Positions 3,239-18,747 of a stretch of 64,000 nucleotides of DNA are shown piece after piece. Source of the stretch: Magnetococcales bacterium. Its GTDB lineage: Bacteria; Pseudomonadota; Magnetococcia; Magnetococcales; Magnetaquicoccaceae. The position numbers and the translations under genes were made by a program. The first letter of the stretch is position 1, and the number at the start of each line of letters is the position of its first letter. The stretch lies in assembly GCA_015231915.1 (NCBI GenBank), contig JADGAR010000013.1:1-64000 (forward strand), given 5' to 3'. Under the pieces are notes generated by a model. The model saw only the letters and a list, made by a program, of their open reading frames with translations, ran no database searches and was not told the origin of the DNA.

Positions 3239-4642
3239 ATGCTGATCGAGAGCGACGCGATTGAACTGGGGACCGCCGTTCCGGAGCTGGAGATCATCCC
3301 GCCACCGCCCCGCCTCTTCATGGGGATCCGGCTGGTTGCCCTGCTGGAGCTGCTCCTGCTGTTGGGAATCGCGGGGGCGATCGACTTCGCCATGCTCGAG
3401 GGGCGGCGCTTCGAGGGGTGGAATCCCAATCCCCTGTGGCTCGCGGTGGTGCTGATCACGGTCCAGTACGGAACCTGGGAAGGGCTGATCGCCGCCCTGG
3501 CCGCCACTGCCTACCTGCGGCTGGGGAACTTTCCAGAACCGCGCTTTGGCCAGGATCTCTTCGATCACCTCTTCGACCTGATGCGCCTCCCTCTGCTCTG
3601 GTTCACCGGAGCGGTCCTGTTCGGCGAACTCCGGGTACGGCAGATCCGCGAACGGGATACCCTGCGCCGCTACCTGATCGAATCGCGCCTGCGCGAGGAA
3701 GAGATCACCAAGGCCTATGTCCGCATGCACCGCGCCAAGGATCGCCTCGAGACCCAGGTGGCGGGACAGACCAGCACCGTGGTATCCTATTTCAAGGCCG
3801 CCCAGACCATGGAGTGGCAGGACCCCGCCTCGGTGATGATCAACAGCGCGGAGCTGGTGCGGGTGATCCTGGGCGCCGACTCCTTTTCCCTCTTCACGCT
3901 CGAGGAGAATCACCTCGAGGTCCTTTTCCGGGAAGGGTGGCCGCAACCCGATGCCTTTGCCCAACGCCTGGATGCCAATACACCGCTCTTTCGGGCGGTG
4001 ATCGGCAATCAGCACTTCCTGGCCATCGCCCAGGCCGCTGATCGCCCCATCCTCGGCAGCGATGGGGTGTTGGCCGGGCCGCTCATCAATCGCGAAAACG
4101 GCAACATCGTCGGCATGCTGAAGATCGAACGGATGGAATTCGTGGAGTTGAACATCAGCTCCCTGGAACATTTCAAGGCCCTCTGCGAGTGGATCGGGGC
4201 CTCCTACGACAAGGCGACGCAGTTCAGCCGGGCACGCTCCGAGAGCGTGATAAACTTTGAGCATCAGCTCTATTCCAAAAGCTTTTTGTTCCGTCAGGTG
4301 CAGCTCCTCACCAATCTGGCGCGCCGCCAGAAGTTCGACCTCTGCATGATCGTCATCCAGGTGGACAGCGTGACCGGGATGAACCTGGAGGAGATGCGTC
4401 GCATCCCACTGGTGCTGGGAACCGAGATCGGCAAGATCATGCGCAAGACCGACATGGTCTTCGACTACGAACGGTCCGGTCACGAATTCGCCCTTCTGTT
4501 GCCCGCCACCCCTGCGGACCATCTCGCCATCGTCGAACGAAAGGTGCATGCCGCCCTGCAAGAGCAGGTGCAGCCCCAGCTTCCGCAGGTCCGGTTCATC
4601 CTCACGAGTCAGATCTTGCACAGCCAGGAGGCCGCGAAGTGA
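3239..4642 (+). CDS. pelD: PelD, c-di-GMP receptor of Pel synthesis
   Basis: A 467-residue inner-membrane protein. Hydrophobic segments lie at about residues 30-135 (LVALLELLLLLGIAGAIDFA and following), then a coiled coil, a GAF domain (about 175-320) and a degenerate GGDEF domain. An RKTD tetrad (Arg402-Asp405) matches the RxxD inhibitory-site motif through which PelD binds c-di-GMP. The GGDEF active-site motif itself is absent, so it should be a receptor and not a cyclase. Length matches the family (about 455). pelD follows pelC by 7 bases and overlaps pelE by 4. Confidence 0.93.
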   Translation: MLIESDAIELGTAVPELEIIPPPPRLFMGIRLVALLELLLLLGIAGAIDFAMLEGRRFEGWNPNPLWLAVVLITVQYGTWEGLIAALAATAYLRLGNFPEPRFGQDLFDHLFDLMRLPLLWFTGAVLFGELRVRQIRERDTLRRYLIESRLREEEITKAYVRMHRAKDRLETQVAGQTSTVVSYFKAAQTMEWQDPASVMINSAELVRVILGADSFSLFTLEENHLEVLFREGWPQPDAFAQRLDANTPLFRAVIGNQHFLAIAQAADRPILGSDGVLAGPLINRENGNIVGMLKIERMEFVELNISSLEHFKALCEWIGASYDKATQFSRARSESVINFEHQLYSKSFLFRQVQLLTNLARRQKFDLCMIVIQVDSVTGMNLEEMRRIPLVLGTEIGKIMRKTDMVFDYERSGHEFALLLPATPADHLAIVERKVHAALQEQVQPQLPQVRFILTSQILHSQEAAK

Positions 4643-5754
4643 ACGATACCCCGTCCGAGGCCGGCACCGAGCAGCTGCTGGATCCGATCTTCAACAACAC
4701 CTCGCCCTGCATCGCCACGTTTCTGTTGGTATGGTGCTTCACCATGGGGCTGCACAGTTGGGTTCTTTGGGAGATGATCTTGGCCGATCTCGATTTTTAC
4801 TCCTCCGGTGCCCTCACCTCGGCTCAGATCATCCTGAACCACATGGTGATCGTGTTCCTGGTGGGACTGGCGGGGTGGGTCTCCCGCTGGAGCGGATGCG
4901 GACAGGCCCTCTTCCTGCTTTTGGCCGGGGCCACGGCTGTGCTGGGATTCATCGGGATCCTGGGCACTCTGCTCGCCTTCGTGCTCTTTTTGGACTATCA
5001 GCGCTCTGCCAAACCGCTCGACGACTGGCACGAACAGCTCTTTCCCAAGGAGAACCGTCAGCAATCCGAGGAGCTGGTCGAACGATTGCAGGTCGCCACC
5101 GCAGATACTAGCGGTAATCTCTCGCCCTTTCTCGATATCCTCGCCTTTGGCAGCCAAGCGCAAAAGCTGACCATGATCTCCATGATCACCCGTCATTTTC
5201 GACCGGCCTTCTCCCGCATCCTCCTGGAGGCGGTCAATGCCCCGGACAATGCGATCCGGGTGCAGGCCGCCACCGCCGTATCCTACCTGGAAAATCGTTT
5301 CGTGCAGGAGTCGATGGCCTTGGAACAACGATTGCTTGACTCCGGGAACGACCCCAAACGGGCGCTGGATGTGGCACTCCACTATGACGAATATGCCTTT
5401 TCCGGCCTGCTCGATCCCTTGCGGGCCAAGGATACCCGAGACAAGGCCCTGCACTACTACCGGCTGTTTCTGGCGAAATTTCCAGATCATGCCGATGCGG
5501 TACACCCGGTGGCCCGGCTTCTGATCAAGAACGGATGCCACGCGGAGGCGGCGGAGTTCCTCCACGGCCTGCTCGCTCACGGCGCGGCGAACGAGACGCT
5601 TCTGGTCTGGTACATGGAGACCCTCTACCGGTTGGGGCGTTTTGACGAACTCAATCAGGTCGCGCATGCGCACTGGAAACGGTTCCGTAACAATGCCAGC
5701 TTCCCGATCCGCATTGTAGAGACCATCGCCCTCTGGGCCGGGAGGGATCGATGA
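4639..5754 (+). CDS. pelE: PelE membrane/TPR protein
   Basis: A 371-residue protein with two hydrophobic N-terminal stretches (about residues 22-50 and 55-115) followed by a helical TPR-rich cytoplasmic part (for example ALHYYRLFLAKFPDHADAVH). PelE forms the inner-membrane synthase complex with PelD, PelF and PelG. The start is GTG, with a GTGA overlap with the pelD stop, implying translational coupling. It ends in an ATGA overlap with pelF. Identity comes from architecture and position, because PelE is weakly conserved. Confidence 0.88.
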   Translation: MNDTPSEAGTEQLLDPIFNNTSPCIATFLLVWCFTMGLHSWVLWEMILADLDFYSSGALTSAQIILNHMVIVFLVGLAGWVSRWSGCGQALFLLLAGATAVLGFIGILGTLLAFVLFLDYQRSAKPLDDWHEQLFPKENRQQSEELVERLQVATADTSGNLSPFLDILAFGSQAQKLTMISMITRHFRPAFSRILLEAVNAPDNAIRVQAATAVSYLENRFVQESMALEQRLLDSGNDPKRALDVALHYDEYAFSGLLDPLRAKDTRDKALHYYRLFLAKFPDHADAVHPVARLLIKNGCHAEAAEFLHGLLAHGAANETLLVWYMETLYRLGRFDELNQVAHAHWKRFRNNASFPIRIVETIALWAGRDR

Positions 5755-7265
5755 AGGGCCTCCGTGCGCCCCCTGCGATGGCCGACATCTGCATGGTGGT
5801 GGAGGGGACCTATCCCTACGTGGCCGGCGGGGTCTCCAGTTGGGCCCACGACATCATCCGTTCCCTGCCGGAATTGAGCTTTTCGCTGGTCGCCATCCTG
5901 GCCCCCAACACCGACCTCACCCCGCGCTATCAGCTTCCCCCTAACGTGATCGGGGTTCACCACATTTTCCTGTCGCCCTTCAAGGCGAAAAGACGTTGGA
6001 CCTTTCGTCGTCCTGGGGCACCCTTCTTCCAGGCACTGGAAGCCGCTCTGTGGGAGTTCACGGAACATCCCGGTATCGTCACCCTGCACCAACTGATCAG
6101 ACTGCTGAAGGAACAACGGGAGACCTTGGGGTGGGATCTCCTGATGAACTCCCGACTCTCCTGGAACATGCTGCTCAAACTGTATGCCCGGATGCTCCCG
6201 GATGGCCCGTTTCTCGACTTCTTCTGGACCTGGCGCTATCTGATGGGCAACCTCTTCGTGATCCTGATGGCCGACCTCCCACCGGCGCGCGCCTATCATG
6301 CGGTTTCGACCGGCTTTGCCGGGCTTTTCCTGGCCCGCGCCCACCTGGAGAGCGGACGTCCGGTCTTCGTCACCGAACACGGGATCTACACGAACGAACG
6401 CCGCATCGAGATCAACATGGCCGACTGGCTCTACGAGAAGCCGCGCAGCTCGTTGCAGGTCGATCACGCGGAACGGGACCTGAAAGGGTTGTGGATCCAT
6501 TCGTTCCAGGCCTACTCCCTGGTCTGCTACCAGGCGTCGGCCTGGATCATCACCCTTTATTCCGGAAATCAGGTCTTCCAGCGGGCCGATGGCGCCGATC
6601 CGGTCAAGATGCGCATCATCCCCAACGGCATCCATTGGGAGGCCTTCGACAAGATCTGTCCGGAACCGGATCGCCCCCCCACGGTGGCCCTGATCGGGCG
6701 GGTGGTGCCGATCAAGGATATCAAGAGCTACATTCGTGCCTGCGCCATCCTGCGCGACGCCATTCCCACGGCGCGCGCCTACGTACTGGGACCAACCGAG
6801 GAGGATATGGGCTATTTCGATGAGTGTATGCAACTGATCGTACATCTAGGTCTGGGGGGCATGTTCGAGTTCACCGGACGGGTGAAACTGACCGAATGGA
6901 TGGGCCGGATCGACATCAATGTCCTGACGAGCATCAGCGAGGGGCAGCCCCTGGTGATCCTGGAGGCCGGCGCTGCGGGGATCCCGACCGTCTCCACCGA
7001 TGTGGGGGGGTGTCGGGAGATGATCGAGGGCCACCAGGACGAGGATCCCCCCTTGGGTCACGCGGGGATCATCACCCGTGTCTCCAGTCCCGCAGAGACG
7101 GCCCAGGCCCTGATCCGTCTGCTCAGCGACCGGGAGACTTATGATCGTTTCAGCGCGGCGATCCGGGCCAGGGTGAAAAAATATTACGCCCTGGGGGATC
7201 TGAAGCAGACTTATTCCGGCATTTACGCCGAGCTTTGCGCCCGCCCGGACGAGGAACGGCTGTGA
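5751..7265 (+). CDS. pelF: PelF glycosyltransferase (GT4 family)
   Basis: A 504-residue cytosolic polymerase of Pel synthesis. The N-terminus carries the PelF hallmark DICMVVEGTYPYVAGGVSSW (residues 12-31). The C-terminal GT-B domain has ALIGRVVPIKDIKSYIRA and the EX7E-type donor-site region SEGQPLVILEAGAAGIP. Length matches Pseudomonas PelF (507). It polymerises UDP-activated N-acetylhexosamine with PelD, E and G. ATG 5751 overlaps the pelE stop; an internal ATG at 5778 (MADIC) is an alternative start. No PelA hydrolase/deacetylase gene is visible in the window. Confidence 0.96.
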   Translation: MKGLRAPPAMADICMVVEGTYPYVAGGVSSWAHDIIRSLPELSFSLVAILAPNTDLTPRYQLPPNVIGVHHIFLSPFKAKRRWTFRRPGAPFFQALEAALWEFTEHPGIVTLHQLIRLLKEQRETLGWDLLMNSRLSWNMLLKLYARMLPDGPFLDFFWTWRYLMGNLFVILMADLPPARAYHAVSTGFAGLFLARAHLESGRPVFVTEHGIYTNERRIEINMADWLYEKPRSSLQVDHAERDLKGLWIHSFQAYSLVCYQASAWIITLYSGNQVFQRADGADPVKMRIIPNGIHWEAFDKICPEPDRPPTVALIGRVVPIKDIKSYIRACAILRDAIPTARAYVLGPTEEDMGYFDECMQLIVHLGLGGMFEFTGRVKLTEWMGRIDINVLTSISEGQPLVILEAGAAGIPTVSTDVGGCREMIEGHQDEDPPLGHAGIITRVSSPAETAQALIRLLSDRETYDRFSAAIRARVKKYYALGDLKQTYSGIYAELCARPDEERL

Positions 7266-7295
7266 ACGCACCCTGGAACCCCGGAGGCTGACGCC

Positions 7296-8681
7296 ATGGC
7301 TGGGATCGGGTTCGTATTGCGGCGACTGACCTATCAGGACAATCTCCTGGGGCTTTTGGCCGGTTTCGGGTACTCCTCGTTGGTGGCCACCGGGCCGTGG
7401 ATCTTCACGATCCTGGTGTTGAGCGGTTCCGGGGCGGTGATGGCGCTTTTCACCAATCCCGATGAACAGCTTGTCTTTCAGTCGATCGTGATCTATAATT
7501 TTTCTTTTTCCTTGGTCCTTACCGGCCCATTGAATCTGGTGATCACCCGCTATGTGGCGGACATGATCTATCGCAAGGATATCCGTGAGGTGCCGGGGAC
7601 CCTGATGGGGGGTGGGATCCTCCTCAACCTGATCAATTTCCCCCTGGCGCTTTATTATTACCTGGCCTGGGTGGAGGCTCCCCTCACCCTGCGCATCTTC
7701 GGGGTGATCAACTACACGATCATCTCCAACATCTGGTTGGCCACGGTTTTCGTGACCGCGCTGAAGGCCTACGAACTGGTGATCCGCATTTTTGTGCTGG
7801 GGATGGGACTGGGGTTTGTGGCCAATATCCTTTTGTCGTTGCAGTTCGGGATTCATGGGATGCTCTTCGGGTTCAATATTGGCCTGTCGGTGATCCTCTT
7901 CGCCCTGTACGGGCGGATCTTCGCGGAGTATCCCCACGACGTGCGCAATCTGTTCGGGTTCATTGCCTATTTCCGCACCTATTGGGATTTGGCGTTGAGC
8001 GGCTTTCTGATCAATGCGGCGGCTTGGATGGACAAATGGATCATGTGGTTGTCACCCGACAAGGTGGTGATTGCCAAGGGGTTCATCTCGTGTCCGATGT
8101 ATGACAGTGCCATGTTCACGGCCTATCTCACGATTGTCCCCTCCATGGCCACCTTCCTGATGAACATGGAGACCGAGTTCTACGAGCGGTATCTGAACTT
8201 CTATCGCAACGTAAGCCGCCACGTCACGCTTGATGTCTTGCGCAAGGCCCATCGCCGTATGGTTGAATGTCTCCATACCAGTGGACGCAATTATATGATA
8301 TTTCAAGGTTCTATCTCCATTACTGCCATCCTGCTGGCCCCCAAGCTCTTCGAGCTTCTGTCCCTCGATTTTCAGACCATCGGGATCTTCCGGTTGGGGG
8401 TTCTCGGGGCTTTTTTCCATATTCTGGTCCAGTTTCTGATCATCGTCCTCTCCTATTTCGACCTGCGCCGGATGATCCTGTTGGTGAGCGCCTTCTTCCT
8501 GCTCACCAATGGGTGGTTCAATTGGCATTATATGCAATTCGGATTCGCTTATTATGGTTATGGTTATTTCCTGGCTAGCTTGGTGAGCTTTGTCCTGGCC
8601 TATCTGATCACCTTCCGTAAGGTCGAGGATCTGATCTATCAGACCTTCGTCGTCTCGAACGCCTCCGTCAACCGGGAGTGA
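7296..8681 (+). CDS. pelG: PelG polysaccharide transporter
   Basis: A 461-residue integral membrane protein with about 12 hydrophobic segments and the conserved PelG opening GIGFVLRRLTYQDNLLGLLA. It belongs to the MOP/Wzx-like flippase group and forms the inner-membrane channel of the Pel synthase. A GGAGG Shine-Dalgarno at about 7282 precedes ATG 7296. It is the last gene of the operon; I see no clear intrinsic terminator in the 180 bases after it. Confidence 0.95.
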   Translation: MAGIGFVLRRLTYQDNLLGLLAGFGYSSLVATGPWIFTILVLSGSGAVMALFTNPDEQLVFQSIVIYNFSFSLVLTGPLNLVITRYVADMIYRKDIREVPGTLMGGGILLNLINFPLALYYYLAWVEAPLTLRIFGVINYTIISNIWLATVFVTALKAYELVIRIFVLGMGLGFVANILLSLQFGIHGMLFGFNIGLSVILFALYGRIFAEYPHDVRNLFGFIAYFRTYWDLALSGFLINAAAWMDKWIMWLSPDKVVIAKGFISCPMYDSAMFTAYLTIVPSMATFLMNMETEFYERYLNFYRNVSRHVTLDVLRKAHRRMVECLHTSGRNYMIFQGSISITAILLAPKLFELLSLDFQTIGIFRLGVLGAFFHILVQFLIIVLSYFDLRRMILLVSAFFLLTNGWFNWHYMQFGFAYYGYGYFLASLVSFVLAYLITFRKVEDLIYQTFVVSNASVNRE

Positions 8682-9492: not shown

Positions 9493-10854
9493 TCATGCCC
9501 CGCCATGCGTGCCCTGGCGCCGCATGGCGCGATAACAGATCACAAGAAACAGGATCCCGCCAATCACGGCAATGCCGCCGCCGATTCCGGTCAGGCCCAT
9601 GGCCAGTTTCTTGGGCAGGGTCTCCAACCCCTGGGCCGCTCCGGCAGTCTTGCGCTGCACGCCCAGCATCCCGGACCAGGCCAAGCCGAACACATGCAGC
9701 AACGATCCCCCGCCATACGCCCACAACTGAACAGCAGCCCAGCGGCCATCCGGCACCCGAAAACCCAAACGCGGCAACAACAGATAGGTCAAACCCATGT
9801 AGGCCACGGTCACCGCCACGATCTCTCCATGATAGTGCGAAGGAATCGTGACATTCAGCCCCTGAATCAAAAACCCGATCCCCCCTCCCACCCCAAACAA
9901 TACCAACGACAACCGCAACGCCAGCCGCAACGGTTGCCCCCCGGTGTCGGACGCCCCGCGCGCCCCCCACCAGGCCGCCAACCCGACCGGCAAGGCGGCT
10001 ACACCGCCACCATATTTCATCAAATCGGCAAAACCACTCTGAAAGCCTGGATCGCCAGGACGATACAGCCAATGCAATACCGGACCTGCCAACACCGGCA
10101 GCGCGCCCAACGACAACAACAATACCGCGACACGGGGGGTCAACGGCTCCCGTCCGCCCCCGGCACTCGCCAGCCACAGCCACGCCACCATCACCAACTG
10201 GGTATGGGTGAACTGCAACAAATGGCCACCCCCCCAGAACAACACTTCATAATAGGCCAGTCTTTCCCCGATGGCAGGCATGGTCAAATAACCCCAGACC
10301 CACGATACCAGAGAAAGCAACACGATCCACAGTCCGCTCGCCACCCCGAACCGCAATGCCCATCCCCCAGGCGTCCACCCCCCCTCGGGAGGCCGCATGC
10401 GCAATCCATAACCGGCCATCACCCCGCTGCCAAGCAGAAACAACACCAATCCCACAAAAAAGGCCCCGTTCTCCAATACCGGGATATAGTTGTTCATGTA
10501 TGGGGCATCCGCCCCCAAAAACGGCGCAAAGGTGATGAGCAACGCCCCCGCGAACGACACCCCCAAGGCCACGAAACCAATCCCACCCCCGCCACCCCCG
10601 CCCAAACAGGCCAGAAATCCGGCATAGGAAAGAAACCACACCAGCACCGAAAGATCGACATGAATCACCAGCGCAGTCTTGAACGATCCGGTCCAGGGCA
10701 ACCAGTCATGCACCACCGGCGTGCGCGCCACCAGAATCAAGATCACTACCAGACCCGCACCCACCAACGAATAGAGCGCCAGCTTCAACCATCCTGCCGC
10801 CAGACGCCGCGCCGCCCCCTCCGGGACCGGCAAAAAGAAACCCTGATCCGTCAT
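9493..10854 (-). CDS. Haem-copper oxidase-like subunit I (stand-alone)
   Basis: A 453-residue membrane protein with about 12 hydrophobic helices. Helix-embedded histidines fit the haem-copper oxidase/NO reductase subunit I superfamily: ALVIHVDLSVLVWFLSYAGF, GGGHLLQFTHTQL, VLHWLYRPGD, IPSHYHGEIVAVTVAYMGL and GGSLLHVFGLAWSG. It resembles the short cbb3-type subunit I-like proteins of sulfur and nitrogen oxidisers. No CcoO, CcoP, NorC or subunit II gene is adjacent, so partner and activity (O2 or NO) are unknown. The frame extends to 10914, but an AGGAGG at about 10861-10866 favours the paired ATGs at 10857/10854. Confidence 0.75.
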   Translation of the reverse strand: MTDQGFFLPVPEGAARRLAAGWLKLALYSLVGAGLVVILILVARTPVVHDWLPWTGSFKTALVIHVDLSVLVWFLSYAGFLACLGGGGGGGIGFVALGVSFAGALLITFAPFLGADAPYMNNYIPVLENGAFFVGLVLFLLGSGVMAGYGLRMRPPEGGWTPGGWALRFGVASGLWIVLLSLVSWVWGYLTMPAIGERLAYYEVLFWGGGHLLQFTHTQLVMVAWLWLASAGGGREPLTPRVAVLLLSLGALPVLAGPVLHWLYRPGDPGFQSGFADLMKYGGGVAALPVGLAAWWGARGASDTGGQPLRLALRLSLVLFGVGGGIGFLIQGLNVTIPSHYHGEIVAVTVAYMGLTYLLLPRLGFRVPDGRWAAVQLWAYGGGSLLHVFGLAWSGMLGVQRKTAGAAQGLETLPKKLAMGLTGIGGGIAVIGGILFLVICYRAMRRQGTHGGA

Positions 10855-10997
10855 CATCGCCTCCTGTGCTTCCGACAAAACCATCCATCCCCCATCATAA
10901 CCCATCACGCCCATCCTGTCCTCCCCCTATATTGCGTTTTTGAAAGGCACATTTCTTGCTTTTTAACATTTCAACCGCCCGCAAGGGAGAGGAAATT

Positions 10998-11041
10998 TTG
11001 ACATTTCTCAAGCATTAGCAAACGATTTCAAGGAGTTACCA
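10998..11041 (+). promoter_or_regulatory. Possible gapR promoter and ribosome binding site
   Basis: TTGACA at 10998-11003 is a perfect -35 hexamer. The best-spaced -10 candidate (AACGAT, 17 bases downstream) is poor. AAGGAG lies about 6 bases ahead of the gapR ATG. The ribosome binding site is solid; the promoter is tentative. Confidence 0.35.
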
Positions 11042-11314
11042 ATGCCGCAGACCCATACCGCATCCAAACCCACCGAATACCAGGGCATCGCCGGTGACGT
11101 TCTCATCCAATACTTCGAACGGATCGAGCGCCTCGAGGAAGAGAAGGTCGCCATTGCCGATGACATCAAGGCCGTCTTCCTGGACGCCAAAGGCAACGGC
11201 TTCGATGTCAAAACCATGCGGGAAATCCTCAAGATCCGCAAAATGGAACGGGCCGCTCTCGAAGAGCAGGAGGCCATGATCCACCTCTATCGCGAAGCCA
11301 TCGGCATGCATTGA
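11042..11314 (+). CDS. gapR: GapR/DUF2312 nucleoid-associated protein
   Basis: A 90-residue all-helical protein matching DUF2312 (GapR): LIQYFERIERLEEEKVAIAD, then IKAVFLDAKGNGFDVKTMRE and ILKIRKMERAALEEQEAM. GapR binds AT-rich, overtwisted DNA and stimulates topoisomerases ahead of forks in Caulobacter. The family is characteristic of Alphaproteobacteria and allies, which is the best taxonomic hint in this window. A good AAGGAG site precedes the start and a strong hairpin follows the stop, so it is probably monocistronic. Confidence 0.93.
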   Translation: MPQTHTASKPTEYQGIAGDVLIQYFERIERLEEEKVAIADDIKAVFLDAKGNGFDVKTMREILKIRKMERAALEEQEAMIHLYREAIGMH

Positions 11315-11321
11315 CTCGCCT

Positions 11322-11351
11322 GGCCGCATCCGGCCAAGCCCGGATGCGGCC
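11322..11351 (+). terminator. Hairpin terminator after gapR
   Basis: A perfect 12-base-pair stem (GGCCGCATCCGG with CCGGATGCGGCC) and a 6-base loop begin 8 bases after the gapR stop. There is no T-run (the stem is followed by AATCCCC), so it may be a weak or factor-assisted terminator. It separates gapR from the repeat-protein operon. Confidence 0.65.
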
Positions 11352-11431
11352 AATCCCCCCCCCGCGCATCCCAATCCATTTCCGTATAAAATCATACTGA
11401 TAATTCTGGCGCCTTTTGTCAGAGATTCCGC

Positions 11432-11460
11432 TTGACTTTGCAACGACGATTTGCGATAAT
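11432..11460 (+). promoter_or_regulatory. Predicted sigma70-type promoter of the repeat-protein operon
   Basis: TTGACT (11432-11437) and GATAAT (11455-11460) are separated by exactly 17 bases, one mismatch from consensus in each hexamer. Transcription would start near 11467, about 67 bases before the ATG at 11534. It also excludes longer in-frame starts for the first repeat protein. Confidence 0.65.
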
Positions 11461-11533
11461 CTGTTCAAAAGATCCAAATCGGTCGCACCAAGGCCTTCCC
11501 AATCCAAATTTCATCCTAAATCTGGAGAACGCA

Positions 11534-11875
11534 ATGAAAACAATCTCGAAATCCGTTATCATGTTTTCCGCCTTGGTCGCGGGCGCTGTGATCATGGGAT
11601 CCTCCGCTCAGGCTGCCGGCACCCAGAGCCAGCCGGGTGGCGCGGTGCAGATCCAGGGCAATACCGAGCTGAACACCAATGTCCAGGGCGGCGTGAAGCA
11701 AAACGTCAAGGGCAGCAACAACAAGGCCACCACCAACGTCGGCGGCATCCAGGGCACCGTGCAGATCCAGGGCAACACCAAGGTCAATACCAACGTCAAG
11801 GGCGGTGTGGTCAATTCCGTCGAGGGCAGCAACAACGAATCCCAACTGAACGTGGGTGGCATCCAAGGCAAGTAA
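11534..11875 (+). CDS. Secreted curlin-like repeat protein 1
   Basis: A 113-residue protein with a Sec signal peptide (residues 1 to about 28, ending SSAQA). The mature part is two copies of a roughly 38-residue repeat: VQIQGNTxxNTNVxGGVxxxV followed by xGSNNxAxxNVGGIQG. The GSNNxA core fits the GxxNxA part of the curlin consensus (QxGxxNxA), and Gly/Asn/Gln/Val content is amyloid-like. I infer a secreted fibre-forming subunit exported by the CsgG-like lipoprotein encoded four genes downstream. A promoter lies 74 bases upstream. The start was chosen because MKTISKS begins the signal peptide. Confidence 0.7.
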   Translation: MKTISKSVIMFSALVAGAVIMGSSAQAAGTQSQPGGAVQIQGNTELNTNVQGGVKQNVKGSNNKATTNVGGIQGTVQIQGNTKVNTNVKGGVVNSVEGSNNESQLNVGGIQGK

Positions 11876-12278
11876 GTCTTTGTATTTTTCCAAAACCAAC
11901 AACCTGATATCCAAGGAAAGAAACACCATGAAAATCAAACAGTCCCTGCAAATCGTCGCCGCCGCCGCCCTGATCGCCGGATTCGGCGTCTCCTCGGTCT
12001 GGGCCGCCGCTTCCCAAACCCCGACCGGACAAAGCCAGACCGGCGGGGCCGTCCAGATCCAGGGCAACACCAACCTGGACACCAACGTCCAGGGCGGCGT
12101 GAAACAGGAAGTCAAGGGCAGCAACAACAAGGCCACCACCAATGTCGGCGGCGTCCAGGGCACCGTGCAGGTCAAGGGCAACACCAAGTCCAGCACCAAC
12201 GTCAAGGGTGGCGTCACCAACCAGGTGAGCGGCTCCAACAACGACTCCCAACTCAGCGTGGGTGGCATTCAGGGCAAG
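11638..12278 (+). repeat. Tandemly duplicated repeat-coding segment
   Basis: The segments at about 11638-11872 and 12042-12278 are near copies in DNA and protein, and each is internally repeated twice (period about 114-117 bases). Four homologous repeat units therefore lie within 640 bases, a substrate for unequal recombination. Confidence 0.7.
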
Positions 12279-12281
12279 TAA
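11928..12281 (+). CDS. Secreted curlin-like repeat protein 2 (paralog)
   Basis: A 117-residue close paralog of the preceding gene. The signal peptide (MKIKQSLQIVAAAALIAGFG... ending VWAAA) precedes the same two 38-residue repeats, with identical segments such as NVQGGVKQ, VKGSNNKATTNVGG and the C-terminal SVGGIQGK. Long stretches are also alike at DNA level, so the pair looks like a recent tandem duplication, as with csgA/csgB-type major and minor subunits. An AAGGAAAG site precedes ATG 11928; the gap from gene 1 is 52 bases. Function inferred: fibre subunit or nucleator. Confidence 0.7.
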   Translation: MKIKQSLQIVAAAALIAGFGVSSVWAAASQTPTGQSQTGGAVQIQGNTNLDTNVQGGVKQEVKGSNNKATTNVGGVQGTVQVKGNTKSSTNVKGGVTNQVSGSNNDSQLSVGGIQGK

Positions 12282-12315
12282 TCCTCTCCCTCGGTAACCA
12301 TGTGGAGGCATCGGA

Positions 12316-12771
12316 ATGTCCAACAACCATCGCACACCGCCCTTCCTGACGGGCCTGATGTTGCTGGCCACCCTGACGAGCGCCTCCGCATGGTCCGGGG
12401 TGATCCCCGACGAACCCGCACTCGACGACCCTCAGGCCGTGGAGTTCCAACTCGCCCCCAGAATCAGCACCCAGAAGCATGCCGGAGGCAAAGCCCCGGA
12501 TAAATCCAAAAAATCTTTTCAGGAGATCCCCGATCCGGGCGCCTCGTCTGCGGAAATGCCCGCCATGCAGATCCGCGGCAACCAGGTCCCCAATCCCAAG
12601 TTCAAGCCCATGACCTCTCCGGGATCGGTCCAGATACGCTCCAACAATCCGGGAGTCCAACTGCAGGGCCATACCCAAATGGATACCGGAATGCAAGGTG
12701 GAGTTCAGCACAAGTCACAAGGACGCGACAATAATAATGACATGAATATTGGCGGCATGCAGAATAAATGA
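12316..12771 (+). CDS. Secreted protein with one degenerate curlin-like repeat
   Basis: A 151-residue protein with a signal peptide (LTGLMLLATLTSASAWSG). The middle is a low-complexity Pro/Lys region. The C-terminal 40 residues are a Met-rich, decayed form of the repeat in the two upstream genes: VQLQGHTQMDTGMQGGVQHK followed by GRDNNNDMNIGGMQNK. The shared ending (IGGMQNK versus VGGIQGK) supports common ancestry. It may be a minor subunit or surface anchor. GTGGAGG precedes ATG 12316. Confidence 0.62.
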   Translation: MSNNHRTPPFLTGLMLLATLTSASAWSGVIPDEPALDDPQAVEFQLAPRISTQKHAGGKAPDKSKKSFQEIPDPGASSAEMPAMQIRGNQVPNPKFKPMTSPGSVQIRSNNPGVQLQGHTQMDTGMQGGVQHKSQGRDNNNDMNIGGMQNK

Positions 12772-12812
12772 TTTTTATGATCAGACGGATGGGAACATTA
12801 AGGAGAAAAATT

Positions 12813-13115
12813 ATGAAAACGATCAATGTAGGGATAGTGGCGCTCCTGCTCGCCTTCACCGCTTCCAGCACGGTTTTGGGAGACGACCTGAACAAGCGCA
12901 GGGACATGGACAACAACTCCTCGGCCAAGATGCTGCGCGCCGAGGCCGAGGCCATGCGGCAAGGATCGGCCCAGGACATGCGCTCCGGCAAGTCCCTGAC
13001 CAAACCGGCCAAATGCAACACCAGCGTCGGCAATGTCACCATTCAAAAAGGGGCCATGGCGCCTCGCGAAGTCAATACCTTTGTCAAGGGGGATGTGATC
13101 AGTGTCTGCAAATAA
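12813..13115 (+). CDS. Small secreted protein with C-terminal cysteine pair
   Basis: A 100-residue protein with a signal peptide (MKTINVGIVALLLAFTASST), a charged Met/Arg/Ala helix, and a C-terminal domain bounded by two cysteines (Cys72 and Cys99) that could form a disulfide: CNTSVGNVTIQKGAMAPREV, then NTFVKGDVISVCK. I do not recognise the family. Its position between the repeat proteins and the CsgG-like gene, with which it overlaps by 14 bases, suggests an export accessory or minor component of the same system. TAAGGAG precedes ATG 12813. Confidence 0.6.
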   Translation: MKTINVGIVALLLAFTASSTVLGDDLNKRRDMDNNSSAKMLRAEAEAMRQGSAQDMRSGKSLTKPAKCNTSVGNVTIQKGAMAPREVNTFVKGDVISVCK

Positions 13116-14655
13116 GAGCCGTTTCTCTCTCCATGCCCGCCGTACCCTGCTGGCCCTGACCGCGATTCTGGCCGCCTCCTGCGGCGGATCCTTGCCCGAT
13201 CCGGAAAAGGCCAGCGTCTCCATGGCGCCCAAGGGCATGCCCACCCGCAACCTGACCGGATTCACCGATGCCCTGCGTTGCATGGACAACCTCTTCCTGG
13301 AACACCGGAAAAAGGGCTACAAACTCACCAGCACCGCGATGAACGACTCCACCGGCAAGCTGGCTCTCGGGGTGCGTGACATGCTGATGACCACCGTGTC
13401 GGCCATGAGCGCCTCCAGCGGTGCGGTCACCTACATCGACATGGACCAGACCGGCGGCAGCGACTCGGTGAACGTCCTCACCGAAAAACTGCTCGGCATG
13501 AACGCCATGCGCATCGACATGCCCCAGGCTTACATCCGCGGTTCCATCAGCCAGGTGGACGACTCCGTGATGTCGGGCAAGAAGGGCGGTGCCATCACCA
13601 CCGGGATCATCGACATCGGTGCCTCCCAGGACCGCAGCGTCTCCTCCATCACCATGGACATGCTCCTCATGGACATGGCCTCGCGCACCAACCTCCCTGG
13701 TCTTCACGCCAGCAACATGATGGCCGTCACCCGTTCCGGCCAGGGGATGGACGCCGGCATCTCCGGCGGCAAGATCATCAAGGCCGGCATTCAGTTCAAC
13801 GTCAGCCAGGACAGCGCGGAAAGCAGTGGTCAAGCCGTGCGTACCCTGGTGCAGTTGGGCCTGATCGAACTGATCGGCAAATGGACCAAGGTCCCCTACT
13901 GGACCTGTCTGGAGATCGAGGGCAACAATCCCCAGGTCCGCACCCAACTGCGCGAATGGTATGATCGCATGACCCCGCAAGACCGGGTCAAGTTCATCCA
14001 GGCCGGCCTGAAGGGGAGCGGTCACTACCAGGGCAACGTGGACAGCCGCGAAAGCGACGTGCTGCGTTCCGCCATCGCCAGATACCAGACCGACCGCAAC
14101 CTGGTCCCCAACGGCAACGTCTCCTTCGAGGTCTACGAGGCCCTGATGCAGGGCAAGGTCAATCTGTCGGCCATGCCCACCGAAACGCCCAAGCAGCAGG
14201 AGGTGATCACCTCGGCCAATCCGATCAACATCCGCCTCTCCACCGAGGGCGACCGGACGGATTACCGGGTGGGCGAGAAACTGGTGGTCAATCTCGCTCT
14301 CTCCCGTGGCGGTTATCCCTACTGCTACTATCGGGATGGCGACGGGACCATCGCCCAGATCTATCCCAACCGCTTCCAGCCGGACAAGCAGGTGCAGGGC
14401 GGCCAGCCCATCTCCATTCCGCCGGGCAGTGGCTTCTCACTGGCCTTCAGCAAGGCCGGGGTCGAGGAAGAGGTGATGTGCATGGCCAGCGATGCCGATA
14501 TCGGCTCCCTGCTGCCCAAGGAGTGGCTGGTGAAGGAACTGACCCCCATGAAGGTGCGCAGCCTGGACGAAATCGCCAAGACCATGACCGAACGCAGCAC
14601 CAAGATGACCTCCATGAAGCCGAGCGTGCAGAAGTTGAAGGTCAGGGTCAGATGA
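13102..14655 (+). CDS. Lipoprotein with CsgG-like, peptidoglycan-binding and DUF4384-like parts
   Basis: A 517-residue outer-membrane-type lipoprotein; lipobox ILAASC with Cys27. Residues about 45-275 look like a CsgG/HfaB-type pore subunit: AYIRGSISQVDDSVM, SSITMDMLLMDMASR and the closing helix GQAVRTLVQLGLIELIGKWT. Residues about 285-355 resemble a peptidoglycan-binding fold (LRSAIARYQTDRNLVPNGNV). Residues about 370-490 fit DUF4384 (YRVGEKLVVNLALSRGGYPY, then YCYYRDGDGTIAQIYPN). In curli systems CsgG forms the secretion pore for amyloid subunits, so this is the likely exporter for the upstream repeat proteins. The start is GTG 13102 with a GGGGG site 9 bases upstream. Confidence 0.68.
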   Translation: MSANKSRFSLHARRTLLALTAILAASCGGSLPDPEKASVSMAPKGMPTRNLTGFTDALRCMDNLFLEHRKKGYKLTSTAMNDSTGKLALGVRDMLMTTVSAMSASSGAVTYIDMDQTGGSDSVNVLTEKLLGMNAMRIDMPQAYIRGSISQVDDSVMSGKKGGAITTGIIDIGASQDRSVSSITMDMLLMDMASRTNLPGLHASNMMAVTRSGQGMDAGISGGKIIKAGIQFNVSQDSAESSGQAVRTLVQLGLIELIGKWTKVPYWTCLEIEGNNPQVRTQLREWYDRMTPQDRVKFIQAGLKGSGHYQGNVDSRESDVLRSAIARYQTDRNLVPNGNVSFEVYEALMQGKVNLSAMPTETPKQQEVITSANPINIRLSTEGDRTDYRVGEKLVVNLALSRGGYPYCYYRDGDGTIAQIYPNRFQPDKQVQGGQPISIPPGSGFSLAFSKAGVEEEVMCMASDADIGSLLPKEWLVKELTPMKVRSLDEIAKTMTERSTKMTSMKPSVQKLKVRVR

Positions 14656-14665
14656 GATGAACAAA

Positions 14666-14702
14666 CAGGCCCCCGGCATGCCGGGGGCCTGACTCCTTTT
14701 TC
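14666..14702 (+). terminator. Intrinsic terminator of the repeat-protein operon
   Basis: A perfect 26-base palindrome (14666-14691; arms CAGGCCCCCGG) can form an 11-pair GC stem with a 4-base loop, followed 5 bases later by a T-run (14697-14702). It lies 10 bases after the lipoprotein stop and separates the operon from the OmpA-type gene. Confidence 0.88.
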
Positions 14703-14729
14703 GAGTGTATGTGTCAACGGAGGCGGATC

Positions 14730-15473
14730 ATGAAGGCTTTGCGGAGTTTACGGTTGTTGGTCTTGATGCTGGGGTTGACCGTCGCGGTCTCTGCCGTGGA
14801 GGCCGGCGAAGGCGCCAGGAAGGGGGGAACCACGATGTTTCAGGACCCGCCCAATCCCGCCGAAATCCTGGAGGCTCTGGGAGAAAAGCCCAAAATCAAA
14901 TACCGCGGCCCCAAGACTCGCGCCATCGTGATCGAGGGGGAGTCCGCCGCCGTCTCGGCTCCGGCGGCGATGCCTCCGGATGTCTCCGATTACAATTCTG
15001 CCCCAGCGGCCCCGGAACCGATGGCCGTCAGCGCCCCTCCGCCGCGACAGGAGATGGCCGCCCCGGAACCCATGGAAGAGTCCCGGCCCGCCCCGGCCAA
15101 AAAGAGCGCCAAAAAGAGCGCTGCCTATGCCAAACAACCCAAGGTCGCCTTCCCTTTGACCTTCGAGGTCAATTCCGCAGTCCTGTCACCCCAGGCCATG
15201 AGCTACGTGGACAGCATGGCCGCCGCCTTGCAGCAAAAGCCGGACATGACCTTGTACATCAGCGGTCATACCGACTCCTCGGGCAGCGACGACATCAACA
15301 TGCCGCTCTCCTTGCAGCGTGCCGAGGCGGTCAGGCAGTATTTGCAAGACAGGCATAACATCGCTCCCACCCGCATGAGCGTGGCCGGCATGGGTTCTTC
15401 CGAATTGTTGATCCCGGCAAGACCCAGGGCCGAGGAGAACCGGCGGGTGGAATTCGTCAAGAGCAACAATTGA
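14730..15473 (+). CDS. OmpA-family peptidoglycan-binding protein
   Basis: A 247-residue protein with a signal peptide (LRLLVLMLGLTVAVSAVEA), a long Pro/Ala-rich linker (about residues 75-140) and a C-terminal OmpA-like domain: FEVNSAVLSPQAMSYVDSMA, then LYISGHTDSSGSDDINMPLS and LQRAEAVRQYL. The domain binds meso-DAP peptidoglycan and ties envelope structures to the wall. There is no N-terminal barrel, so it is probably periplasmic. GGAGG precedes ATG 14730. It starts a second transcription unit of envelope genes after the terminator. Confidence 0.88.
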   Translation: MKALRSLRLLVLMLGLTVAVSAVEAGEGARKGGTTMFQDPPNPAEILEALGEKPKIKYRGPKTRAIVIEGESAAVSAPAAMPPDVSDYNSAPAAPEPMAVSAPPPRQEMAAPEPMEESRPAPAKKSAKKSAAYAKQPKVAFPLTFEVNSAVLSPQAMSYVDSMAAALQQKPDMTLYISGHTDSSGSDDINMPLSLQRAEAVRQYLQDRHNIAPTRMSVAGMGSSELLIPARPRAEENRRVEFVKSNN

Positions 15474-15495
15474 ATTGGCGCCAGATCGGGAGACG

Positions 15496-15795
15496 ATGAT
15501 GCCGCGACTTTTCTTGGCAGCAGTTTTGATGGCCTTCTCACTTGCGCCGGTTTCTTCCGCCTTGGCGGAGGTTACCAGCGATGAGGGCAATCTGTTCACC
15601 CGTCCCGGTCACTTCTCCCTGACCTGCTGGCAGCAGGGGGTGAAGATCGTGGAGCGCAGCAATCTCGCCACCCTCAAGGAGAATCCCATGCTGGGTCAGT
15701 CGCCGCTCCACTTTGTCACCCGTGGCAAGGAGCGGTTGCCGGTACAGATCTTCCACATGGGCGAAACCTTCTGCATCGTGCAGGGCGAGCCGTGA
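15496..15795 (+). CDS. Small secreted protein of unknown function
   Basis: A 99-residue protein with a signal peptide (MPRLFLAAVLMAFSLAPVSS, then ALAE). The mature part has two cysteines (in LTCWQQGVKIVER and ETFCIVQGEP) that could pair. I do not recognise the family. A GGGAG site favours the paired ATGs at 15496/15499. It overlaps the next gene by 4 bases (GTGA), so it belongs to the operon of the OmpA-type and GIN-type genes. Confidence 0.7.
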   Translation: MMPRLFLAAVLMAFSLAPVSSALAEVTSDEGNLFTRPGHFSLTCWQQGVKIVERSNLATLKENPMLGQSPLHFVTRGKERLPVQIFHMGETFCIVQGEP

Positions 15796-16589
15796 ACGGA
15801 TGGCGTGCGGGTGTGGCGGTGGGATGGCTGGCCCTGTTGCCCGGTCTGGGCCTGGCTGCCGAAGACACCAGCTTCGCTGCTCGCGCCATCGAGTTGGAGG
15901 GGATTCACGGTGAGGTCTCCATCATGCCGGGGGCGAGCGGTGACCAGGTGCACTGGCGGCATGCCAAGAGCGCTGCTGCGGCCTTCAACGGGCAATTGGT
16001 GAATGGTGTGGTCCGTTTCTCCCCCAAGGCCGCTGCAGGCGGCGGGTCGGTGGCGGTGCGCACCGAGGGCGGGGTCACGGTGGTGGAGTCCGGGGTGGGG
16101 AATCGGGTTTCCGTCAATGTGGGCAACTCCGGCACGTCGGTGGAGGTCCATTCGAAGCCCCCGCCGCGTCTCGAACTGGTGGTCCCGAAAGGGATGACGA
16201 TCCGGGCGCGCCAATCCTCCGGGAAGTGGCGCATCGGTGATGTGGAGGGACCGGTTGACTTTTCGCTGCTTTCCGGCGAGGCCGAGATCGGACGTGTGGG
16301 CGCAACGATCGTGCTGCTGGATGGCGCCGGGGAGATCCGGGTCTCCCATGTCACCGGCAACCTCAAGGCGGTCGTGGACGGCAGCGGTTCCCTGCGCGTG
16401 AAGGACGGGCGGATGGAGATGTTGCGGGTCACTCTGAACGGAACCGGCGACGTGCATGTGGGAGGGGTCTCCCGCCAGGCCGAGGTGGCGCTCAACGGCA
16501 CGGGCAACATCGATATCGCCAGAGTCTCGGAAAGACCGGTCGTGATGCGGGAGGGGGTCGGCGACGTGCGCATTGGGGGATGGGAATGA
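15792..16589 (+). CDS. GIN/DUF2807-like secreted beta-repeat protein
   Basis: A 265-residue protein with a short signal peptide (VAVGWLALLPGLGLA). The mature part is strand-rich and quasi-repetitive. Its last 120 residues have the ladder typical of GIN (DUF2807) or DUF4097 beta-helices: IRVSHVTGNLKAVVDGSGSL, VTLNGTGDVHVGGVSR, VALNGTGNIDIARVSE. Such domains occur in secreted or surface adhesin-like proteins; no enzyme motif is seen. The start GTG 15792 overlaps the previous stop (GTGA). Function in this locus unknown. Confidence 0.65.
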   Translation: MNGWRAGVAVGWLALLPGLGLAAEDTSFAARAIELEGIHGEVSIMPGASGDQVHWRHAKSAAAAFNGQLVNGVVRFSPKAAAGGGSVAVRTEGGVTVVESGVGNRVSVNVGNSGTSVEVHSKPPPRLELVVPKGMTIRARQSSGKWRIGDVEGPVDFSLLSGEAEIGRVGATIVLLDGAGEIRVSHVTGNLKAVVDGSGSLRVKDGRMEMLRVTLNGTGDVHVGGVSRQAEVALNGTGNIDIARVSERPVVMREGVGDVRIGGWE

Positions 16590-17407
16590 GAAACACCAAT
16601 CGAATGCATCGCTTGCGTCTGGCCATCGGTCTGTTCGGGACGCTCTGGGTCGCCCAGGCGGTGGCAGAACCTTTCGAAGAGGGGTTGCAATCCTACAATC
16701 AGGGGGATTATGCCAAGGCCATGAAACTTTGGCTGCCCCTGGCACGCGAGGGGAGCAGTGGGGCGCAGAACAACATCGGCGTCTTGTACGACAACGGCCT
16801 TGGGGTGGAAAAAAACGCCCAGGAGGCCATCAAGTGGTTTCAGATGGCTGCCGGCAGTGGGGACACGGCGGCTCAGTTCAACATGGCGGTCAAGGGCATC
16901 GAGGTCGCCGCAAGTCCGGCGGATCAGTCGGTGGCCTTCCAATATTTTCGCCAGGCTGCAACCCATGGCCATCCCGATACCATGAACAATCTCGGTGGCA
17001 TGTTCGATCAGGGGATCGGCACCACCCAGGATCGCATCGAGGCCATCAAGTGGTATCGCAAGGCCGCCAACCAGGGGTCGCACCTGGCCAGCTACAATCT
17101 CGGGGCCAAGTATTTCCTGGGTCAGGGGGTGAACTCCGACATCAAGGAAGCGGTCAAGTGGTACCGCAAGGCTGCGGAAATGGGCAACAATCGCGCCCGC
17201 TATCGCCTCTCGTCCTTGTACGAGGAGGGCAACTCCGGCGTGGAGAAGGATCTTGTGCAGGCCTATTACTGGTATACCCTGGCCGGGGACAACAACCCCG
17301 AGGCGATCCGGCGTCGTGACCGCATGGCGGTCAACATGACCCAGGCCCAGTTGGTGGATGCCAAGATGCTGGTCAGGAAGTGGAATGCCAAGAAAGGACA
17401 AAAGTAA
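16586..17407 (+). CDS. Secreted Sel1-repeat protein A
   Basis: A 273-residue protein: signal peptide (LRLAIGLFGTLWVAQAVAEP), then about six Sel1-like repeats (for example GAQNNIGVLYDNGLGVEKNA, EAIKWFQMAAGSGDTAAQFN and EAVKWYRKAAEMGNNRARYR). Sel1/TPR-like solenoids are protein-interaction scaffolds, often periplasmic, with roles in envelope and signalling complexes. ATG 16586 overlaps the previous stop (ATGA); an in-frame ATG lies two codons upstream at 16580. A second Sel1 gene lies nearby at 17827. Confidence 0.87.
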   Translation: MRNTNRMHRLRLAIGLFGTLWVAQAVAEPFEEGLQSYNQGDYAKAMKLWLPLAREGSSGAQNNIGVLYDNGLGVEKNAQEAIKWFQMAAGSGDTAAQFNMAVKGIEVAASPADQSVAFQYFRQAATHGHPDTMNNLGGMFDQGIGTTQDRIEAIKWYRKAANQGSHLASYNLGAKYFLGQGVNSDIKEAVKWYRKAAEMGNNRARYRLSSLYEEGNSGVEKDLVQAYYWYTLAGDNNPEAIRRRDRMAVNMTQAQLVDAKMLVRKWNAKKGQK

Positions 17408-17609
17408 CGCCCAACACCCCGCCGGGGCTGTCAAGGGGACGCGCGATCTCCTGGACCAGGTGATCCGGGCCAGGCAGGCTCTCGACTATTTTGCCAATGA
17501 CGCCCTGAACGAACGGGGCGAACTGCGCGACGGAACCGCCGTCCGTTCCCACCTCAACGCCGCCAAGGCCCATGTGATCCGGGCCATGGAGATGGCGCAA
17601 AACCTGTAA
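17385..17609 (+). CDS. Small helical protein, unknown
   Basis: A 74-residue hydrophilic, helix-rich protein (LLDQVIRARQALDYFANDAL, then LNAAKAHVIRAMEMAQNL) without a signal peptide. It overlaps the Sel1 gene by 23 bases in another frame. It is short and unrecognised, but its regular amphipathic pattern and lack of rare codons make it plausible. Start uncertain: ATG 17385 assumed. Confidence 0.5.
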   Translation: MPRKDKSNAQHPAGAVKGTRDLLDQVIRARQALDYFANDALNERGELRDGTAVRSHLNAAKAHVIRAMEMAQNL

Positions 17610-17826
17610 TCGTTCTCACGGCAGACCCATGACAGACCCGAACGCACCCTCTCGCCTGCGCCTGAACCTTGGCTGGGGATCTGATCGTCTGTCAGGTTGG
17701 AGCAATTGCCATGGCCATGGCTGGACAACAGCGTCGGTGCAGAACGTTTTTTTGTATGCGTTTCCCATCGGATCTGGTAAGATAGCTCATCTGCTCAAAG
17801 GCGCCAAACACGAAAAGAGTCCAGCC

Positions 17827-18747
17827 ATGAACAATAAACGGTCATTCATCCGTTTTTTTGCCGCGCTTGCCGTAATGGCTCCGATGGCCTGGACATGGCC
17901 AACCCCCTTGGTGGCCGACGAGTACGAAGGGAGCCAATCCCTCGACGAAACCCTGCGTGCGGCCAACAAGGGCACTGCCGATGCCCAGAACAGCCTCGGC
18001 ATCGTCTACCGCGACGGTCTTGGCGTCCCCCGTGACTATAAAAAATCACTCAAGTGGTTCCGACAGGCCGCCGAACAGGGGCTGCCCGAGGCCCAATACA
18101 ACCTGGCCCTCATGCATCAGGACGGCAAGGGGGTGGCCAGGGATGACGCAGAGGCGCGCAAATGGCTGCGACAGGCCGCCGACAAGGGGTTCGCGGAAGC
18201 GCGCTACCACCTGGGTGTCCTTTGCCTCAAGGGCCAATCGGACCTCCCGGCGAACGAGACGGAGGCGCGCCAATGGTTCCGGAGCGCCGCCGAACAAGGC
18301 TTGGCCAGCGCCCAGTACAAACTGGGCATGATGTGCCTCGACGGCAGGGGAGGGGCGCCGGACGAACAGGAGGCTGCCCGCTGGCTCCGCCTGGCCGCCG
18401 ATCAGGAGTTCGCCCGTGCCCAGACCAGCCTCGGCATGCTGCATGCCGAGGGTAGGGGCGTGGAGAAGGATCCGGTGCTGGCCGTCATGTGGTTCGGGCT
18501 TGCCGCGCAGCAGGGGGATCCCAATGCCTCCAAACAGCGCGAGGCGCTCCTCAAGACCATGACCCCGGAGCAGATCGCCGAGGCGCAAAAGCGGATCATC
18601 TCGTGGACCCCGCCCGCCCTGGAAAAGGGCCGCGCTTCCAGCCAGGCCGGGGCCAAGCCAGCGGCCCCCGCCGGATCGGTCGTCGCCCCGCAACCCGTGG
18701 GCGATGGGCGTCAGACGCCATCCTCCAGTCAGGCGGTCTCGTTTTGA
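17827..18747 (+). CDS. Secreted Sel1-repeat protein B
   Basis: A 306-residue protein: signal peptide ending near AWTWPTPLVADE, then about seven Sel1 repeats (ADAQNSLGIVYRDGLGVPRD, KSLKWFRQAAEQGLPEAQYN and so on to about residue 235) and a Pro/Ala-rich tail. The frame is open to 17629 but has no signal sequence upstream; ATG 17827 precedes the signal peptide. The 217-base gap from the previous gene suggests its own promoter, though none is convincing. The stop overlaps the likely dnaE start. Confidence 0.87.
   Translation: MNNKRSFIRFFAALAVMAPMAWTWPTPLVADEYEGSQSLDETLRAANKGTADAQNSLGIVYRDGLGVPRDYKKSLKWFRQAAEQGLPEAQYNLALMHQDGKGVARDDAEARKWLRQAADKGFAEARYHLGVLCLKGQSDLPANETEARQWFRSAAEQGLASAQYKLGMMCLDGRGGAPDEQEAARWLRLAADQEFARAQTSLGMLHAEGRGVEKDPVLAVMWFGLAAQQGDPNASKQREALLKTMTPEQIAEAQKRIISWTPPALEKGRASSQAGAKPAAPAGSVVAPQPVGDGRQTPSSSQAVSF

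Follow-up and report, generated by a model that had tools for sequence, protein, structure and literature searches.

The question raised by this locus is what a run of small secreted repeat proteins does beside a large lipoprotein in a Magnetococcales bacterium, and whether these genes belong with curli. A sequence-only reading of the window (the whole stretch of 64,000 nucleotides analysed here) had proposed a compact, curli-like operon of four small signal-peptide genes and a 517-residue lipoprotein gene. These five genes (11534-14655, forward strand) were confirmed: the N-termini of g1-g4 are signal-peptide-like, that of g5 carries a lipobox-like AASC with Cys27, and comparison with a 95%-identical copy in Magnetococcales bacterium WMHbin3 gave dN/dS values of 0.14-0.34 across all of g1-g8, a sign of purifying selection that marks them as real genes (Table 1). 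Our preferred reading, to which we give a probability of about two in three (0.68), is that the locus encodes an export and assembly system which belongs to the CsgG/HfaB superfamily, is anchored to peptidoglycan and serves β-repeat surface proteins.

Table 1. Features of the locus and its surroundings, in window coordinates
Feature	Position	Strand	Description
pel-type cluster	3239-8681	+	PelD-like GAF/GGDEF, TPR protein, PelF-like glycosyltransferase (DUF3492), PelG (E 5e-128)
Sigma-70-like promoter, predicted	11432-11460	+	TTGACT-17-GATAAT, extended -10; consensus scan
g1	11534-11875	+	signal-peptide repeat protein, 113 aa; dN/dS 0.20
g1 repeats, 38 aa each	11645-11758 and 11759-11872	+	
g2	11928-12281	+	g1 paralogue, 117 aa; dN/dS 0.21
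g2 repeats, 38 aa each	12051-12164 and 12165-12278	+	
g3	12316-12771	+	secreted protein, 151 aa; dN/dS 0.20
g3 degenerate 38-aa repeat, C-terminal	12655-12768	+	
g4	12813-13115	+	100-aa secreted protein of an undescribed family; invariant C68, C99
g5	13102-14655	+	517-aa lipoprotein; GTG start; overlaps g4
g5 residues 45-275, CsgG/HfaB-like domain	13234-13926	+	hhalign, Foldseek
g5 residues 294-348, PG_binding_1	13981-14145	+	Pfam E 3.9e-8
g5 residues 388-464, DUF4384	14263-14493	+	Pfam E 3.3e-17
Terminator-like hairpin, predicted	14666-14691	+	11 pairs, between g5 and g6
g6	14730-15473	+	OmpA-C (peptidoglycan-binding) envelope protein; Pfam E 3.8e-20
g7	15502-15795	+	small secreted protein; conserved CWQxGxKI and C-terminal Cys motif
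g8	15792-16589	+	DUF2807 (head GIN) protein; Pfam E 1.7e-5

This reading turns on the identity of g5. Pfam finds only PG_binding_1 and DUF4384 in the g5 of the window, which bears out the extra wall-binding and DUF4384-like parts that had been ascribed to the exporter; PF03783 (CsgG) has no match in it, and the match to NCBIfam HfaB (NF037935) is weak (E 0.015, 14.5 bits, with an equivalog cut-off of 300). An Azospirillum relative matches HfaB with an E-value of 8e-6, and among 65 relatives of g5 the HfaB model is matched at E ≤ 0.01 in 46 and the Pfam CsgG family in 15 (best E 3.4e-5), with DUF4384 present in all 65 and PG_binding_1 in 45. When residues 1-285, represented by an alignment of the 65 relatives, were compared with the two families using hhalign, the probability was 98.1 (E 1e-13) for CsgG and 98.9 (E 2.3e-17) for HfaB. 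On these sequence comparisons g5 is nearer to HfaB, the holdfast anchor, than to CsgG. CsgG and HfaB are nearer to each other (E 2e-48) than either is to g5, which therefore appears to form a third branch, more divergent than the other two.

A search of PDB sequences with g5 gave no match. In a Foldseek search with the AlphaFold2 model (mean pLDDT 77.6), the best 23 PDB matches are all CsgG, with E-values down to 6e-8 and modest TM-scores of about 0.45-0.6 by target length. The model places long strand pairs, at low confidence, at the positions of the CsgG membrane hairpins (residues 143-219), and the stretches with pLDDT below 50 (residues 155-176 and 214-239) are likely membrane segments. 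A CsgG fold had been expected in residues 45-275; both Foldseek and hhalign return CsgG there, and fold, profiles and Pfam agree on a CsgG-like exporter domain. We conclude that g5 joins a divergent CsgG/HfaB domain, in its N-terminal part, to PG_binding_1 and DUF4384.

The gene order is widespread, not a local arrangement: it is also seen in Azospirillum, Pasteurellaceae, Comamonas, Rhodocyclaceae, Thiotrichales and others. A scan of our collection gave 79 named g5 loci, from Magnetococcales, Azospirillum, Roseomonas-type bacteria, Geminicoccaceae, Thiotrichales, Pasteurellaceae, Comamonas, Rhodocyclaceae and other groups, and g5 is matched at E ≤ 1e-15 in 19 of 398 sampled Pseudomonadota genomes, about half of them from the class of the window itself. 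The g4 gene lies immediately 5' of g5 in 38 of the 79 loci; its family, which has no informative match in Pfam or NCBIfam, retains two invariant cysteines near the C-terminus. In 36 of 72 loci, same-strand signal-peptide proteins with internal repeats precede g5; the corresponding counts are 4 of 76 for the region downstream of g5 and 5 of 72 for the opposite strand. These upstream proteins go with g4: they are present in 29 of 34 testable loci that have it versus 7 of 38 that lack it, a split obtained by combining two locus lists by hand. Because the loci share ancestry, such counts are not independent events.

Neither g4 nor recognisable repeats are present in roughly half of the g5 loci, chiefly in Azospirillum and Roseomonas relatives, and g5 may therefore do something else there; in the Azospirillum-type loci the same pore may serve other cargo. 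In two Azospirillum-type loci, DUF4399-type proteins precede g5 in place of the repeat proteins and g4 (L016, 4793-5897; L056, 5278-5856). Three loci encode a 391-residue repeat-rich secreted protein 3' of g5, possibly a further cargo (L088, 8636-9808; L089, 8644-9816; L094, 4647-5819).

The limits of the unit are wider than first drawn. The single promoter of the sequence-only reading corresponds to a predicted site with 10 of 12 consensus matches, and the block is conserved upstream of the operon of a relative (L028). The putative terminator, a GC-rich hairpin followed by ACTCCTTTTT, retains its stem in L028, with a different loop; both assignments are predictions from consensus or conservation. 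The hairpin does not close the conserved neighbourhood: g6 and g7 lie beyond it and accompany g5 in many genomes. An OmpA-type gene directly follows g5 in 25 of 75 loci, including Azospirillum, under a strict rule, and in 8 further loci an OmpA-type frame starts inside g5. The g7 family is present in 50 of 91 loci (a set that includes some loci twice under different identifiers), always encoded on the same strand as g5 and 3' of its start. Relatives of g8 are more loosely associated, occurring in 19 loci, 16 of them on the g5 strand. We consider g6 a probable part of the same module; the unit reaches past the terminator to g6 and g7 and perhaps to g8. A DUF2807-type relative of g8 is flanked by two long repeat proteins 5' of g5 in the loci of a Thiodiazotropha and of a Ctena symbiont (L074, 3019-5477; L078, 3130-5590).

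Several features flank the unit. Directly 5' of the promoter is a gene for a GapR-type DNA-binding protein (PF10073; 11042-11314, forward strand), a neighbour shared with L028, and further upstream on the reverse strand (9493-10914) a 473-residue COX1-like membrane protein, under the Pfam cut-off, is possibly a divergent relative of heme-copper oxidases. Two successive Sel1-repeat proteins (16580-18747, forward strand) and then DNA polymerase III alpha follow g8. An Rfam search of 10500-17500 found no riboswitch or other RNA family.

The mature g1 and g2 proteins are paralogues, 80% identical, and each carries two 38-residue repeats. The GSNNxA core attributed to all of these repeats is exact in the first repeat of each protein only (GSNNKA), the second ones having GSNNES and GSNNDS. 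With its single degenerate repeat, g3 is a candidate minor subunit. An AlphaFold2 model of mature g1 (mean pLDDT 81) is all-β and regular, with four strands per repeat, in keeping with the β-structure anticipated for the repeat proteins; against the PDB it has no significant Foldseek match, the best being the FapC amyloid at E 2. An NCBIfam match of g2 to PraB (E 7e-4) was rejected: its score of 19 is below the cut-off of 120, and the matched residues (5-68) are mostly signal peptide.

The sequence-only reading had called the subunits curlin-type, which our sequence comparisons do not support. PF07012 (curlin) is absent among the families listed for 27 members of the repeat family, the curlin repeat family of Pfam has no match in the whole genome at E ≤ 0.001, and hhalign of the repeat family against curlin repeats gives a probability of 2.7%. 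We also built a curlin HMM from CsgA, CsgB and the curlins of CsgG loci, with shuffled sequences as a control (mean -0.4 bits, sd 2.2). The Magnetococcales repeat proteins score 2-6 bits (maximum 6.2) compared with 25 for E. coli CsgA and 32 for CsgB, and nearly all other members of the family are at or below the shuffled level. Beyond the GxxNxA core, a curlin identity of the g1 and g2 repeats is thus without support from Pfam, the HMM or hhalign. The repeats also differ in length, 38 residues versus the 23 ± 5 of curlin repeats (PMC10192328) with their QxGxxNxA pattern. What the locus shares with the csg operons of E. coli is a CsgG-fold lipoprotein and paired repeat subunits of β-rich predicted structure; what sets it apart, besides the repeats, is the additional domains at the C-terminus of g5 and the absence, which had been correctly noted for CsgE and CsgF, of any match to CsgE (PF10627), CsgF (PF10614) or PF03783 in the whole Magnetococcales genome at E ≤ 0.001.

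Could the subunits nevertheless be degenerate curlins that have lost the glutamine ladder and leave through a CsgG variant that works without CsgE and CsgF? The retained GxxNxA core would fit, and some curli systems do lack both accessory proteins; Dueholm et al. also report Alphaproteobacteria where curlin subunits alone could be identified (PMC3521004). Given the profile scores and the repeat length just described, we regard divergent true curli as very improbable. A comparison with Fap, the functional amyloid of Pseudomonas, extends to a compact operon with its own outer-membrane exporter (a prediction here) and to the non-significant fold match of g1 to FapC. The exporter FapF is of an unrelated type, and none of the window proteins searched matched a Fap family.

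The HfaABD system of Caulobacter crescentus is the closer parallel, sharing with our locus the HfaB-type lipoprotein domain, including the TxFSxaLrCmD / TPYSxALxC stretch, and small secreted partners encoded beside the lipoprotein. This raises the alternative of a surface complex, built from g5 and the repeat proteins, that ties an exopolysaccharide such as Pel to the outer membrane instead of making free fibres. The nearness of g5 to HfaB speaks for it, as does the fact that HfaA and HfaD are HfaB-dependent surface proteins that anchor a polysaccharide (PMC6707917), and a pel-type cluster lies 3 kb 5' of the operon. The near-identical operon of G027, however, comes from a genome in which PelG has no match; three further genomes (G001, G011, G043) have Pel and the operon on different contigs, the assemblies being fragmented. 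With linkage not conserved among relatives in the PelG search, we discarded a functional connection and treat the proximity as coincidence or local convenience. HfaABD also differs in that g5 carries PG_binding_1 and DUF4384, has an OmpA-type neighbour, and is partnered by a Cys-pair protein and 34-38-residue repeat proteins; the g4 family matches no HfaA-type NCBIfam model, and the one HfaA/HfaD-like pair seen beside an HfaB (L112) has, by eye, no obvious similarity. We consider an analogue of the holdfast anchor unlikely, and less likely still that g5 is a periplasmic scaffold or activator on peptidoglycan, a CsgG-fold protein of the LpoB or FlgT type with the repeat proteins as structural elements of the envelope. 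Some CsgG-fold relatives are indeed not known as export pores, g5 has a peptidoglycan-binding domain and weaker Foldseek matches to FlgT and HpaA, and one of the 65 relatives matches LpoB; but CsgG outranks all three, the strand pairs at the membrane-hairpin positions would be needless in a scaffold, and the neighbours are secreted repeat-type proteins, like those of curli and holdfast loci.

Under the preferred reading of an anchored export system, the fold suggests that lipidated g5 would insert into the outer membrane and oligomerise there into a CsgG-like pore, which its C-terminal PG_binding_1 domain, probably together with the OmpA-type g6, would tether to the cell wall. In Caulobacter, HfaA and HfaD depend on HfaB to reach the cell surface, and HfaB is regarded as a translocon of the CsgG type (PMC6707917); by analogy with this precedent, g5 most likely exports g1-g3. 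The main subunits g1 and g2 and the minor subunit g3, secreted by the Sec pathway, would leave unfolded through the g5 pore and, outside the cell, fold into open-ended β-repeat structures that could stack into fibres, possibly amyloid, or a surface coat serving adhesion or biofilm formation. The g4 protein, whose Cys-bracketed C-terminus weakly resembles one repeat, would act at the pore, likely as an adaptor, nucleator or cap.

More tentatively, and at somewhat less than even odds, we propose that these loci represent a third, undescribed branch of the CsgG/HfaB superfamily across proteobacteria, including Pasteurellaceae, in which a pore with its own peptidoglycan anchor is combined with a Cys-pair gate or nucleator (g4) and with non-curlin amyloid subunits built of 34-38-residue β-repeats. 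No published description of such a system, of DUF4384 together with CsgG, or of CsgG with a peptidoglycan-binding domain and a functional amyloid was found in a search that left aside subscription journals and preprints. If the proposal is true, CsgG-type export of amyloids or adhesins would reach beyond what the curli and holdfast-anchor models imply, and a whole branch of it would escape the standard curli HMMs for CsgE, CsgF and the curlin repeat. It would also offer a compact system, in culturable groups such as Azospirillum, Comamonas and Pasteurellaceae, in which to ask how much of the csg machinery the export of β-repeat proteins needs, and would provide candidate functions for lipoproteins with DUF4384 and peptidoglycan-binding domains and for two unnamed families of small proteins, those of g4 and g7.
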